From a virus, in IMG/VR virus record IMGVR_UViG_3300020203_000066, positions 1 to 30,568 of that record: 30,568 nucleotides of DNA; one strand, written 5' to 3'. Position numbers and translations under genes: made by a program. Numbering within the stretch: position 1 is the stretch's first letter; each line of letters starts with the position of its first letter. Positions 3,087-30,392 of the stretch are shown here, piece by piece. A model generated the notes under the pieces. That model did not search any database and was not told where the DNA came from. It saw nothing but the letters and a program-made list of their open reading frames with translations.

Positions 3087-5795
3087 ATGACAAATCTCGT
3101 ATCTGAACATAACGAAAAAATAACGGAAGAGCTTATTGCAAATCCAGAGCTTATTAAAAATAAGAGATGGAGGATGGATAATTTATATTGGATAATAACT
3201 AAGGATGGGAAGAAGGAGCCTTTTAATATGAATCGGGCACAACTTCATTTTTTTGAAAATTACTTATCTATCCCAGGAAAGATATACCACAGGCATGTTA
3301 TTTTAAAAGCGAGGCAACTTGGGTTTACGACATTTATTGATATTTTTATATTAGATGAGATTCTTTTTAATACGAATAAGGAGGCTATTATTATTGCTCA
3401 CAAAGTTGAAGATGCTACTCAGATTTTTGATAAGAAAGTAGACTTTGCAGTTAGAAACATGGCGGCTGATGTTAAAGATGCGTTCTTTAATATAAAACAC
3501 AACTCAGCGAAGAAGATACAGGTGACATTAGACTACGGACCAGAGAAGGGTTCGACTTCTTCGATTACTGTTTCTACCTCTGGACGTTCTGGAACATTTC
3601 ATCTTGTGCATATTTCTGAGTTTGCGAAGATGTGTATCTTATTTCCTAAGAGAGCGGATGAAGTGGAAACAGGAACTTTTCCAGCGGTTCCTTTTGATGG
3701 TTTTATTTTTATTGAAAGTACTGCGGAAGGTATGGCAGGGAGGTTCTATGAAGTGTTTCAAGAGAGGTGGCTTACTCGGGAGAAGATTACTCCTCAGCTT
3801 TCTCAAGTTCAGTTTCTCCCACACTTCTACAACTGGCAGTATGATGATATGGAAATGAAGAAGATTCAGAATACTATACCAACTTTGGAGATGGATGAGT
3901 GTGAGATTGATTGGACTGAGTACCAGTCGGAAAATAATCTTACGGATTTAGAGATAACTTACTACTACATGAAATGGCAACAGCTTGGAGGAAAGGGTGG
4001 TACTGATGCTGTGAAAAAATTGAAGCAGGAATACCCGACTACTCCAGAGGAGGCTTTTCTATCAACCGGGCAATCTTACTTCCCCATTGCTAAAGTGGCT
4101 TCTCTTCTTGCGAAGGTGGAACACGGAATAAAAGGAGAACTATTTACTGATGAAAAAGGTGAAGTTAGTTTTATGGCCAACTCATCCGGGAACTTTGAAA
4201 TGTTCGAAAAGCCGGAAGTTGGGACTAGGTATATTATTGGTGGGGATACTTCGGAGGGTCTAGCTCACGGGGATGCTCAGGTGCTCTATGTTATTAATCA
4301 TAAGACTGAAAATTGTGCTGGGATTTACCGGTCACAAGTATCACCAGATGAATTGGCTAACGAAGCATATAAACTCGGGAAATTTTATAATTGGGCTTTA
4401 CTTGCTATCGAAGTAAATAAAGATGGACTCTGGGTCAACGATGCTTTAGAAAAGATGGGGTATGTAAATCTTTATGCTCGGAAGGTCTTTGACGATATAA
4501 CTCAGAAGATTACAAAGTTTTTTGGTTGGAAGACTACCTCCTCTACACGACCATTCTCATTAGCGGCATTGAAAGCGGTCTTTCTTAGGAAGAATAGTGG
4601 GTTTCCATCAGCACTCCTTAATGAGATGTTTACTTTCATTCGAAATGTAAAAGGTAAGCCAGAGGCTATGGATAAAAAAAAGGATGATTGTTTCGTTGCT
4701 GGGACACAAATTCTTACTGACAAAGGTAATATTCCGATTGAAAAAATAAAAGTGGGGGATATGGTTATGACTCGTAATGGGTACAGACCTGTGGAAATAA
4801 CCCGTAGTAGTTATAAAAGAGTAGTAAATAATATAGGATTGGTGGGTACACCTGACCATTCCATTGTATCAACCAAGGATAATTCTAAAAAAGGAGATAT
4901 TGTGTTGTCTACTGTTACTGATAGTGATACACTATATATATGGAACTCAACAAAAAGGATGATAGAGAAATTATTATATACGGAGGCAAAAGATATACTC
5001 GACACACAGAGTCAAAACGCAGACAACATCGTGTATATTTTTGGAGACATGATAATGGGAAAGTACCACTTGTTGCATTACATAGGCAGATTTGGATTGA
5101 TACTTACGGAGAGATATCTAGGTATAATGTTATACACCATAAAGATGGTAACCCTCTTAATAACAAAATTGAAAATTTGGAATGTATGTCTGCAAGTGAA
5201 CATGCGAAACATCACATGGGAACTCCTGAGAGAAGAGAGCTTTCTAGTAAAACTGCTAAAAAACAAGGGACAAGACTTTATGAATCAGGGGCAATTTGGA
5301 GAAGGACAAAAGAGGGTATCGAGTTTAACAGACAAAACATCTATGGTTCACTTCAACTCAAAGAACCCGAGTGGTTTGTTTGTAGAATCTGCAAGAAAAG
5401 TTTTGAATCTAGGGTTAGGAGCTCTATATTTTGTTCTAAAAAATGTAGTGTTTGGTATTCGAACCACAAAAACAATAATTTTAAGTTTGGTAAAACTGTT
5501 AGTTGTCCTATCTGCAAGACTATGTTTATTGCTGCCGTTAATCACCTTAAGTATTGTTCTAAAAAGTGCAGGGTTAAATATTCTAATGATAAAGCAGCTG
5601 CAAAGGAGAAGGGTCTACAATCTTCAGGTTGCTGATACCCACGAATACTTTGCTAACGGAATTTTGGTTTTCAATTGTGTGATGGCGGCTTCTATTGGAT
5701 ATGCAGTTCTTCAGGAGCAAGGTAGGTATATTGCTGATGTTCAAGGAACTGAAGGTTTCTCACATTTGAAAGTTTTATTCGGAGAAACTCAGTAA
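3087..5795 (+). CDS. terL: Terminase large subunit interrupted by an intein
   Basis: DNA-packaging motor ATPase and nuclease. The 902-aa translation is a 573-aa terminase (residues 1-534 and 864-902) plus a 329-aa intein. ATPase signs: a Walker A-like segment KARQLGFTT (residues 74-82), Walker B region HLVHISE (172-178) and the coupling motif FIESTAEG (208-215). Nuclease signs: GGD at Asp387, IEV at Glu442, and the third acidic motif DDCVMA, which is formed only after splicing of Asp534 to Cys864. The intein therefore sits exactly in the third catalytic motif, a typical highly conserved homing site. The gene starts 3 nt after terS. A second protein, an HNH nuclease, is encoded in the -1 frame inside the intein part. 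Confidence 0.92.
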   Translation: MTNLVSEHNEKITEELIANPELIKNKRWRMDNLYWIITKDGKKEPFNMNRAQLHFFENYLSIPGKIYHRHVILKARQLGFTTFIDIFILDEILFNTNKEAIIIAHKVEDATQIFDKKVDFAVRNMAADVKDAFFNIKHNSAKKIQVTLDYGPEKGSTSSITVSTSGRSGTFHLVHISEFAKMCILFPKRADEVETGTFPAVPFDGFIFIESTAEGMAGRFYEVFQERWLTREKITPQLSQVQFLPHFYNWQYDDMEMKKIQNTIPTLEMDECEIDWTEYQSENNLTDLEITYYYMKWQQLGGKGGTDAVKKLKQEYPTTPEEAFLSTGQSYFPIAKVASLLAKVEHGIKGELFTDEKGEVSFMANSSGNFEMFEKPEVGTRYIIGGDTSEGLAHGDAQVLYVINHKTENCAGIYRSQVSPDELANEAYKLGKFYNWALLAIEVNKDGLWVNDALEKMGYVNLYARKVFDDITQKITKFFGWKTTSSTRPFSLAALKAVFLRKNSGFPSALLNEMFTFIRNVKGKPEAMDKKKDDCFVAGTQILTDKGNIPIEKIKVGDMVMTRNGYRPVEITRSSYKRVVNNIGLVGTPDHSIVSTKDNSKKGDIVLSTVTDSDTLYIWNSTKRMIEKLLYTEAKDILDTQSQNADNIVYIFGDMIMGKYHLLHYIGRFGLILTERYLGIMLYTIKMVTLLITKLKIWNVCLQVNMRNITWELLREESFLVKLLKNKGQDFMNQGQFGEGQKRVSSLTDKTSMVHFNSKNPSGLFVESARKVLNLGLGALYFVLKNVVFGIRTTKTIILSLVKLLVVLSARLCLLLPLITLSIVLKSAGLNILMIKQLQRRRVYNLQVADTHEYFANGILVFNCVMAASIGYAVLQEQGRYIADVQGTEGFSHLKVLFGETQ
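4689..5675 (+). other. Intein in the terminase nuclease motif, 329 aa
   Basis: Splicing block A starts with Cys535 (CFVAGTQILTDKG) and reads on into EKIKVGDMVMT, typical of Hint domains. Block B is TPDH (Thr588, His591). The C-terminal block F is VYNLQVADTHEYFANG and block G is LVFN followed by the extein Cys864. The terminal Asn863 is present, but the usual penultimate His is Phe862, a known but less common variant. Between about residues 640 and 840 the splicing frame has no recognisable intein or LAGLIDADG sequence and is hydrophobic. This is because the DNA there encodes an HNH protein in the -1 frame. The splicing domains are complete at both ends and in one frame, so protein splicing is likely still active. 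Confidence 0.85.
4940..5635 (+). CDS. HNH homing endonuclease nested in the intein, -1 frame
   Basis: A complete 231-aa protein starting MELNKKDDREIIIYGGKRY. The N-terminal part (YGGKRYTRH ... LHRQIW, residues 14-52) and the core VIHHKDGNPLNN..ENL (64-80), with His48, His66/67, Asn75 and His88, match stand-alone HNH homing nucleases. Two treble-clef-like zinc fingers follow: C148xxC151/C165xxxC169 and C189xxC192/C206xxxC210. The ORF is closed upstream by TGA at 4925-4927, so it is not a simple -1 extension from far upstream. Its ATG uses the last base of a terminase ATA codon plus TGG, and its TGA stop straddles GCT-GAT within intein block F. No SD and no canonical slippery heptamer are visible, so internal initiation is the simpler guess. 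Confidence 0.88.
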   Translation: MELNKKDDREIIIYGGKRYTRHTESKRRQHRVYFWRHDNGKVPLVALHRQIWIDTYGEISRYNVIHHKDGNPLNNKIENLECMSASEHAKHHMGTPERRELSSKTAKKQGTRLYESGAIWRRTKEGIEFNRQNIYGSLQLKEPEWFVCRICKKSFESRVRSSIFCSKKCSVWYSNHKNNNFKFGKTVSCPICKTMFIAAVNHLKYCSKKCRVKYSNDKAAAKEKGLQSSGC

Positions 5796-28370: not shown

Positions 28371-30392
28371 CTAGGGAGAGCCGTTTATTGATGATGCTAT
28401 TCTTGCCTCTGCTATCTTAACATATTCTGGGTCAAGTTCTATACCTATGAAGTCAAAGCCTTCTAATACGCAAGCCTTGCCTGTGCTACCGCTTCCTGTG
28501 AAGGGGTCAAGTACTGTTCCTCCCTTTGGCGTTACAAGTCTTACTAGGTATTGCATAAGGGAGGTGGGTTTTACAGTGGGGTGGTTGTTTTTAGTGTTTT
28601 TGCTTTCCATTTCTTTATAGTAAACTTCACCTGAACATCTCGAATGGTCATTAGTTCCATTAAGTGTCTTATCGCAAGTTTTACAAGTTGGACTTTGTGA
28701 ATAATTACCTGCTGTAAACTTTTCTGAAGTTTCAAACCCCTCCAGCCCCTCATTCCTATCTTTCTTTGAAGCCTTCGCACAGTAGAAGAAGCGTGAGGCG
28801 GAGCCAGAGTCGCCACGTTGAACCCTATCTACATGGTCGCCCGTAAACCATGATTTACTTGTTCCCCTATTTATTTCATTTCTATCAATGGTTGACTTGC
28901 TCTCAGGAAACAACCCTACCACCTCATCACTTCCGTCGTGGATAAAGTTTGCGGGGAATCTGCCTTGATTTTGTGGCTCACTTTTCCAACCATTATTGGG
29001 GGCATTGGGCGTACTTGTTTCTTTATTATTACCTTGTACTCTTTCTAGTTTTTCTTCCGTTCCTACCCTACACCCATCTATATTTATCCCCCCCGTCCCC
29101 CACTTCAATACATTCTCTGCGATAGTGCTTTCTGATAGTGGCTTGCGTGCCATACAAATAGGTTCGTGAGCAGGTTTTAGAGCTGTACCCCAGCCTTCGT
29201 AGGGTGATATGCCTTTGGATAAATCCCATTTATTACCAACACCTTTCTCGGATTGCCAGCTTCTATTTTTTGAATCTGGATTTGTTTTATTTTGTATATG
29301 CTCTCCCAAGTCTTCCCTCTCATTCCCCTGCAACTTATCAACTGCCTTTCCTATTAGAATATCTACCATGTTTGAAATTAGGCATTCCATTGTGTATTCC
29401 GTAATAATGACATTGGTGGCAGACACACATTCCATTTGAGAGTTTGTGTCTAAGCTCTGGAAAGTCTTTGATTGATTTAATATGGTGAGCTTCAAGGTGT
29501 CGGTCAGTAGCACACATAGAACATTTGTAATTTCCTCGTTTGAGTATTTCTGATTTCCACGCAAGGTCTTCAGGGCTTCGTCTACCTTGAGATTGACCGT
29601 TGTGTTTTCGTTTAGCCATTCCCTGACATTGCATTCCGCAGTAAAAATGCTCCAAGACTTGTGATTTCGGTCTTGTGATAATTTTATTACAGACTTCACA
29701 AGGTTTTGTGATAGTTCTGTGTTTTGTTCTACACTCTCTACTGCAATAGATAGATTCTCCTCTGATATGCGACTTGGAACGCATAAGCTCAACTCCGCAG
29801 TTATCGCATCTGCATATTTGTTTTTTTGATTGAAATACAGAACAGCAATGTCGGGAACAAAATACTTTTTTTGAGTATTGCTTCCAACTCCTGTTAGACT
29901 CTTTGCTAATTTTATTTCCGCAAGTTTTGCATTCGTTTTCCATAACTCAATTATAGTCTTTTGGTCTATATTGTCAAGTGCATTGCTTATCTTTGACCAC
30001 TCTTTTGTTTCAAGGGAATTGACGCTTTTCCCAAGATTGTGACTTTTTGGGAAGCCTGAGCCGTAAACCCACATAATCTGGTCTCGTATCTCAAACCCAG
30101 CGTCTTCAATGTTCACCGCCATTCTGTGATAGGTTCTACTACCTGCAAAAGAAAGTAAGTGTCCACCTGGCTTTAATACCCTGATAGCTTCTTTCCATAG
30201 CTCTACTGTTGGCACATCGTAATCCCAAACCTTACCCATAAAAGATAGACCATACGGAGGGTCAGTTACGATTGAGTCCACACTATTTTCTTCTAGTGTT
30301 TTTAATATTTCCAAGCTGTCTCCCTGCAAAACTATATTTTTGTATTCAAACTCCTTATCAAACTCCGCTAAGATTTTTTCTGTGTTGTTCAT
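28371..30392 (-). CDS. DNA methyltransferase (beta class, N4/N6) with an inserted in-frame segment
   Basis: Transfers a methyl group from SAM to the amino group of A or C in DNA. Catalytic motif IV is DPPYG (Asp44-Tyr47) near the N-terminus and the SAM-binding motif FTGSGSTG (631-638) is near the C-terminus, the beta-class order. Other landmarks are WVYGSGFPKSHNLGK (108-122), WGTALKPAHEPI (401-412), NNHPTVKPT (602-610) and a Cys-rich patch CKTCDKTL...HSRC (570-586). At 673 aa it is about 227 residues longer than needed because residues 123-349 are an insertion, after which AVDKLQGNERE continues the normal sequence. The insertion holds an HNH gene in the -1 frame. A partial Dam-like gene lies just upstream. 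Confidence 0.88.
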   Translation of the reverse strand: MNNTEKILAEFDKEFEYKNIVLQGDSLEILKTLEENSVDSIVTDPPYGLSFMGKVWDYDVPTVELWKEAIRVLKPGGHLLSFAGSRTYHRMAVNIEDAGFEIRDQIMWVYGSGFPKSHNLGKSVNSLETKEWSKISNALDNIDQKTIIELWKTNAKLAEIKLAKSLTGVGSNTQKKYFVPDIAVLYFNQKNKYADAITAELSLCVPSRISEENLSIAVESVEQNTELSQNLVKSVIKLSQDRNHKSWSIFTAECNVREWLNENTTVNLKVDEALKTLRGNQKYSNEEITNVLCVLLTDTLKLTILNQSKTFQSLDTNSQMECVSATNVIITEYTMECLISNMVDILIGKAVDKLQGNEREDLGEHIQNKTNPDSKNRSWQSEKGVGNKWDLSKGISPYEGWGTALKPAHEPICMARKPLSESTIAENVLKWGTGGINIDGCRVGTEEKLERVQGNNKETSTPNAPNNGWKSEPQNQGRFPANFIHDGSDEVVGLFPESKSTIDRNEINRGTSKSWFTGDHVDRVQRGDSGSASRFFYCAKASKKDRNEGLEGFETSEKFTAGNYSQSPTCKTCDKTLNGTNDHSRCSGEVYYKEMESKNTKNNHPTVKPTSLMQYLVRLVTPKGGTVLDPFTGSGSTGKACVLEGFDFIGIELDPEYVKIAEARIASSINGSP
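29338..29943 (-). CDS. HNH homing endonuclease nested in the methyltransferase, -1 frame
   Basis: A complete 201-aa protein starting MENECKTCGNKISKESNRSW. Three treble-clef-like zinc fingers come first: C5xxC8/C29xxxC33, C46xxC49/C67xxxC71 and C82xxC85/C102xxxC106. Then a typical HNH domain follows: YKCSMC (141-144), EAHHIKSI (His153-154), SNGMCVCHQCH (Asn170, Cys175, Cys178, His179). TGA occurs 4 bases upstream of the ATG in this frame, so the ORF is self-contained. The ATG straddles the host codons TTA-TGG, and the stop TGA straddles GTT-GAT in the host's AVD. No SD. The surrounding methyltransferase frame is open throughout. Confidence 0.88.
   Translation of the reverse strand: MENECKTCGNKISKESNRSWKQYSKKVFCSRHCCSVFQSKKQICRCDNCGVELMRSKSHIRGESIYCSRECRTKHRTITKPCEVCNKIITRPKSQVLEHFYCGMQCQGMAKRKHNGQSQGRRSPEDLAWKSEILKRGNYKCSMCATDRHLEAHHIKSIKDFPELRHKLSNGMCVCHQCHYYGIHNGMPNFKHGRYSNRKGS
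29346..30026 (-). mobile_element. In-frame 681-nt insertion in the methyltransferase carrying an HNH gene
   Basis: Related phage methyltransferases read ...SHNxGKAVDKLQGNERE directly. Here 227 open codons (SVNSLETKEWSKISNAL ... NMVDILIGK) lie between GK and AVDKLQ. The segment lacks Cys/Ser at the start and Asn-Cys at the end, so it is not an intein, and I see no group I/II intron fold. Its first residues GKSVNSLETKE resemble the host residues after it, GKAVDKLQGNE, so the target appears duplicated in degenerate form. The length is divisible by three. I infer a homing element whose host-frame product is tolerated as an extra loop. Confidence 0.7.

Follow-up and report, generated by a model that had tools for sequence, protein, structure and literature searches.

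A predicted HNH endonuclease gene hidden in a stop-free insertion of a phage DNA methyltransferase gene, a probable splice-free homing element

The window analysed here, the whole 30,568-nucleotide stretch of IMG/VR virus record IMGVR_UViG_3300020203_000066, carries on its minus strand an N6/N4 DNA methyltransferase (MTase) gene that contains a large insertion and is nevertheless free of stop codons over all 673 codons (Table 1). The protein matches Pfam N6_N4_Mtase (9.5e-35) and phrog_67 (8.4e-76), and both motifs that define an N6/N4 MTase, DPPY and FxGxG, were found by a motif scan, DPPYG (motif IV) preceding the insertion and DPFTGSGS (SAM-binding motif I) following it. A preliminary description, made from the sequence alone, had claimed an open in-frame insertion between the GK and AVDKLQ segments. 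This is confirmed by the reading frame itself and by alignment with an uninterrupted relative (L005), which reads ...NIGK|AVDKIQGNEREDLGEHIQNKTNPDSKNRSW (AVDKIQGNERE...) at this point, fixes both ends and places the insert at MTase residues 123-349. Another relative, L006, is also uninterrupted at the site. Among GenBank phages, 1278 records match the MTase by tblastn, and only in Escherichia phage BUCT618 does the match extend over at least 80% of the enzyme with the insert included; about 400 phage records match the site region and, among the matches listed, all but BUCT618 are uninterrupted.

Table 1. Features of the interrupted methyltransferase locus (positions in the window)
Feature	Positions	Strand	Description and basis
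N6/N4 DNA methyltransferase (MTase) ORF	28371..30392	-	673 aa including the insert; ORF listing, Pfam, PHROG, motif scan
Insert	29346..30026	-	681 nt = 227 codons in the MTase frame; alignment with empty-site methylase
Leader	29944..30026	-	83 nt, MTase frame only; SVNSLETKEWSKISNALDNIDQKTIIEL; partly resembles the target SKAIDK
HNH homing endonuclease gene (predicted)	29338..29943	-	201 aa, ATG start; three CxxC/CxxxC zinc fingers and a zinc-bound HNH motif LEAHHIKSIKDFPELRHKLSNGMCVCHQCHYYGIH
Overlap of HNH 3' end and downstream MTase codons	29338..29345	-	8 nt; sequence and comparison of 14 junctions

Most of the insert is occupied by a second gene in the -1 frame, where HNH codon position 2 coincides with MTase codon position 1. 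The encoded protein matches the phrog_1271 HNH endonuclease (6.8e-18) and has three treble-clef-like CxxC...CxxxC fingers followed by the HNH motif; across 13 relatives the zinc-finger Cys and the His/Asn residues of the HNH motif vary little or not at all. AlphaFold predicts its structure with a pLDDT of 77, and the best PDB match of the model is the HNH endonuclease of phage GVE2 (5h0m, E 0.034, probability 0.98). The earlier reading of a complete three-zinc-finger HNH gene filling nearly all of the insertion has therefore held. Its TGA stop comes from the MTase codons for V351-D352, and in the 14 junctions compared the HNH stop is often a TGA concealed in the host AIDK or AVDK codons. No clear Shine-Dalgarno sequence was found before the HNH start, and no conventional -1 slippery heptamer was seen there by eye. 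Window genes on both strands have A-rich sequence before their start codons, mostly without a Shine-Dalgarno, a pattern that has been described for Bacteroidota (PMC6847099). A Bacteroidota-type host for this phage might be guessed by analogy.

Searches based on the MTase and on the HNH protein gave 13 further distinct versions with an HNH identity of 47-96% to the window, found in 12 IMG/VR lineages and in BUCT618, so that 14 distinct inserts including that of the window could be compared (L001, identical to L002; L003; L004; BUCT618, or L008; L013; L014; L016; L017, identical to L018; L019; L020; L021; L022; L030). All 13 lie in the same MTase family after GFPKSxxxSK, with the HNH gene in the identical relative frame and the MTase frame open. 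Relatives with a closed host frame, which according to the preliminary description would speak against a dual reading, were looked for and not found among the 14 versions. The target site is conserved as SK-[A]-[IV]-D-K-x-x-G-x-E-R-E, with the empty form SKAIDKAAGAERE. The 3' junction differs in L021 (around 3590), which rejoins the methylase at HEGWGSNLKPAL without the usual AIDKxxGxERE stretch, and L022 has no ATG where the HNH gene usually starts. In BUCT618 (OM735461.1, 36396-38258) the record annotates the MTase only and the 201-amino-acid HNH protein was missed. Scans of genome contigs for bacterial or prophage copies gave only weak zinc-finger matches, and a distant blastn search of E. 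coli genomes with the BUCT618 insert gave no match. An excision scar, in the form of a leader without the HNH gene, was sought in GenBank phages; the matches listed comprised just empty sites and BUCT618. Downstream of the MTase gene in L016 (2503-2534, plus strand) there is an Rfam match to the abiF RNA (39.3 bits, gathering threshold 37).

Two phages can resemble each other far more closely in the insert than in the surrounding gene, which indicates that the insert moves by itself. Nucleotide identity between the window and L001 is 0.974 in the insert compared with 0.816 and 0.657 in the 5' and 3' flanks, and the corresponding values are 0.950 against 0.702 and 0.572 for BUCT618 and L020, and 0.922 against 0.705 and 0.574 for L016 and L017. 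HNH-synonymous distances are 0.069, 0.167 and 0.234, compared with flank synonymous distances that are 0.56-1.85 or saturated. Spread independent of the host gene is thus found in the identities of insert and flanks, and such a contrast is what homing would be expected to produce. Purifying selection acts on both flanks. Most contigs that extend far enough have an intact downstream motif I; the motif scan did not reveal it in L022, nor in L004, L013 and L014, which stop short.

The MTase frame is open in 14 of 14 distinct inserts, down to an HNH identity of 47%, compared with 6-25 stops in the third frame and 9, 21, 2, 4 and 23 stops in the equivalent frame of free-standing HNH relatives. When the HNH protein was recoded with the codon usage of the phage itself, the MTase frame acquired a mean of 5.5 stops and was without stops in 0.08% of the recoded sequences. 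Given the relative frame, an MTase stop is possible only where an HNH codon NTA precedes A or G, or NTG precedes A, which makes it possible to compare dangerous with safe contexts. For Leu, Ile and Val, NTA was used in 0 of 164 positions before A or G, where it would give TAA or TAG, and in 26 of 117 before C or T (p=2e-11; with one sequence per clade 0/89 dangerous against 16/65 safe, p=3e-7). Likewise, NTG was used before A in 0/46 cases and in 38/119 cases in safe contexts (p=7e-7). The other genes of the window have no such bias (254/742 against 118/376) and the free-standing HNH relatives have the opposite one. Synonymous shuffling within each HNH gene predicts 1.5-3 stops and a probability of zero stops of 0.006-0.10 for each gene, or a combined p=1e-5 over seven clades with one sequence from each, although the stop-avoidance P-values are optimistic because the clades share ancestry. 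A cruder, lineage-wise estimate that uses synonymous differences alone yields a weaker result than the context test, only about 10^-2.4. Chance does not suffice to explain the open host frame, and both frames appear to be kept open with statistical support.

Substitution rates in the two frames, which the preliminary description had proposed to compute, differ: the HNH protein is strongly constrained (dNN/dSN 0.09-0.37), and the host frame is constrained in the 24-codon leader only. In the leader the host-frame omega is 0.34, 0.92, 0.22 and 0.09 in four close pairs and the other frames give no signal, which suggests host-frame purifying selection in three of the four (0.34, 0.22 and 0.09). In the overlap the host-frame dNN/dNS of 0.18-1.3 is confounded because the host-synonymous sites are HNH first positions, and it is read as weak or no amino-acid constraint. 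Selection on the host frame in the overlap may therefore act against stops only. The leader also holds an imperfect copy of the target (SKAIDN/SNALDN). At the DNA level it is an imperfect direct repeat of the 3' junction SKAIDK in the same register, with 18/20 in L020, 17/20 in L014 and 15/20 in the window; the remaining versions are at noise level.

The impression that the host frame of the insert looks like soluble protein is not supported. AlphaFold models the core of the whole MTase with good confidence at both ends, with a pLDDT of about 26-42 through the insert and low confidence also through the MTase recognition region. The host-frame insert alone had no significant match in Pfam, PHROG or PDB, and there is little host-frame constraint in the overlap.

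The reading that we prefer, with a probability of roughly 0.82, is a homing element without splicing, in which one stretch of DNA has two readings, an HNH endonuclease that starts at an internal ATG and an additional segment that the enzyme tolerates. An HNH gene would have been inserted at a tolerant position in the target-recognition region of a phage MTase gene and would be translated from its own ATG in the -1 frame. The endonuclease would cut MTase genes that lack the insert, and repair would copy the insert into the cut gene. As neither an intron nor an intein would remove it, the element would persist by avoiding stops in the MTase frame; ribosomes could then translate across it, giving an MTase that tolerates about 227 extra residues and is presumably active. 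It had been claimed that the enzyme must either tolerate a large loop or skip it by some mechanism; judged from the sequences, tolerance is most likely, and skipping is needless and leaves the avoidance of host-frame stops unexplained.

Splicing is the obvious competitor, and the earlier statement that the insert lacks intron and intein signs is borne out by Rfam, Pfam and the junction residues. Phage group I introns often carry HNH genes, and an imperfect repeat of the 3' flank lies at the 5' end of the insert, as an unrecognised self-splicing intron with an incidentally open host frame might have. However, a group I or II core would not fit into the roughly 83 nt outside the HNH ORF, no such catalytic RNA core was found, and an Rfam search of the insert gave no intron match even at a relaxed E-value. 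Moreover, the host frame of an excised intron could be closed without harm, but here its stops are avoided, and in most close pairs the leader changes in the manner of host-frame codons. An intron is for these reasons very unlikely. A degenerate or novel intein, with a host-frame polypeptide that excises itself, would account for the open frame since protein splicing requires it, and a real intein with an out-of-frame HNH gene is present in the terminase of the same phage. The MTase, however, has no match to the Hint/intein family in Pfam and none to splicing domains, Hint motifs and a C-terminal Asn followed by Cys, Ser or Thr are lacking, the insert ends in K or Q followed by A in the SKAID and SKAVD versions, and constraint on the host-frame residues in the HNH overlap is weak. 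We regard an intein as even harder to credit than an intron.

It is also conceivable that a genuine extra MTase domain came first and was later overprinted by the HNH gene. The purifying selection in the leader would fit this order, as would the helices predicted, with low confidence, in the host-frame insert. The free-standing relatives of the HNH protein point to HNH as the older reading, no homologue of the host-frame domain without HNH was found, and the HNH frame is under far stronger amino-acid constraint; the idea is improbable, if slightly less so than either form of splicing. The least probable of the explanations considered is that the insertion inactivates the MTase, that the HNH gene alone is selected and that the host frame is open through recent insertion and chance. 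Phage methylases are often dispensable, and the shuffles put the chance of an open frame in a single lineage at 0.6-10%. This account has to face 14 of 14 open frames, the strong codon-context avoidance, flanks under purifying selection, and catalytic motifs that are intact on both sides in most contigs that reach them.

The large terminase gene of the window (3087-5795, plus strand) contains an intein from CFVAGTQ... to ...VFNC (Hint_2, 2.6e-8), in which an out-of-frame HNH_3 gene is nested (4940-5635, plus strand) in the same relative frame as in the MTase. This gene also avoids host-frame stops (P(0)=0.001; NTA in 0/18 dangerous against 8/18 safe contexts).

We lean towards the broader view that homing elements without splicing, read in two frames, form a general class with several origins, represented by the SK|AIDK HNH, the HNH of mycobacteriophage ShiLan and the terminase-intein HNH. 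They all share the relative frame in which a zinc-finger HNH gene gives few host stops, and they might persist through selection against stops in an otherwise information-poor host frame. Hidden homing genes are not peculiar to mycobacteriophages, as a second, unrelated HNH family is found in phages from many samples and in an Escherichia phage, at another site of the same enzyme. The codon-context test, which was not found in the published work consulted on hidden HNH genes, provides evidence for translation of the host frame across the insert. An oddity thereby becomes a testable alternative to introns and inteins, a third means by which a homing gene can reside inside a coding gene, and one that automatic annotation misses, as in BUCT618.

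The published system closest to the element is the ShiLan domain, a hidden HNH in the gp65 DNA methylase of mycobacteriophage ShiLan (PMC11855218, PMC9957025), described in 2025 as a stop-free methylase insertion that hides an out-of-frame HNH without an intron or intein signature (PMC11855218). Comparison with the ShiLan gp65 sequence shows the same methylase family (GFPKSMDVSKAIDKAAGAEREVIG...GWGTALKP), an in-frame stop-free insert of about 200 codons, a zinc-finger HNH, no intron or intein signature, and the same relative frame, with the host codon beginning at HNH position 2. As in the window, the insert moves independently and its 5' end resembles the 3' flank. The site, however, is about 60 residues downstream of that in the window (GTALKPS|..AFEPIVVARKPL (AFEPI) compared with SK|AIDK), and the HNH belongs to another family of which only the zinc fingers align (BLASTP E 5e-5 over 42 residues; HHalign 73 columns). 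The ShiLan HNH has a GTG start and is found in Mycobacterium phages, whereas the window element has an ATG start and is found in diverse phages. With neither the site nor the full-length HNH family shared, the window element is not an orthologue of the ShiLan domain proper. On sequence grounds it is a new HNH family at a new site within the published kind, and it has probably evolved independently of the ShiLan domain. BUCT618 and selection tests are absent from the 2025 report (PMC11855218).

ShiLan gp65 (L023, 7786-10668) has an intein just before SGFPKS in addition to the ShiLan HNH after GTALKPS. One methylase family is accordingly invaded at several points within about 80 residues of the uninterrupted enzyme, at the two ShiLan sites and, in other phages, by the window-family HNH after SK.

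Pacc40 gp60, the second hidden endonuclease case (PMC11855218), is likewise a phage methylase whose in-frame insertion holds an endonuclease ORF in another frame; going by the description in that paper, it differs in being a divergent methylase with a helicase domain and in its type of endonuclease. Free-standing HNH proteins of Staphylococcus phage PB50, Bacillus phages and haloarchaeal plasmids have the same zinc-finger-HNH architecture with 24-32% identity, but their genes stand between other genes and the equivalent alternative frame is not kept open (2-23 stops). Phage group I introns and inteins with HNH genes would follow the same homing logic, in which the empty allele is cut and the element copied in. 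Unlike these, the window element has no splicing apparatus, and its host frame appears to be read through.
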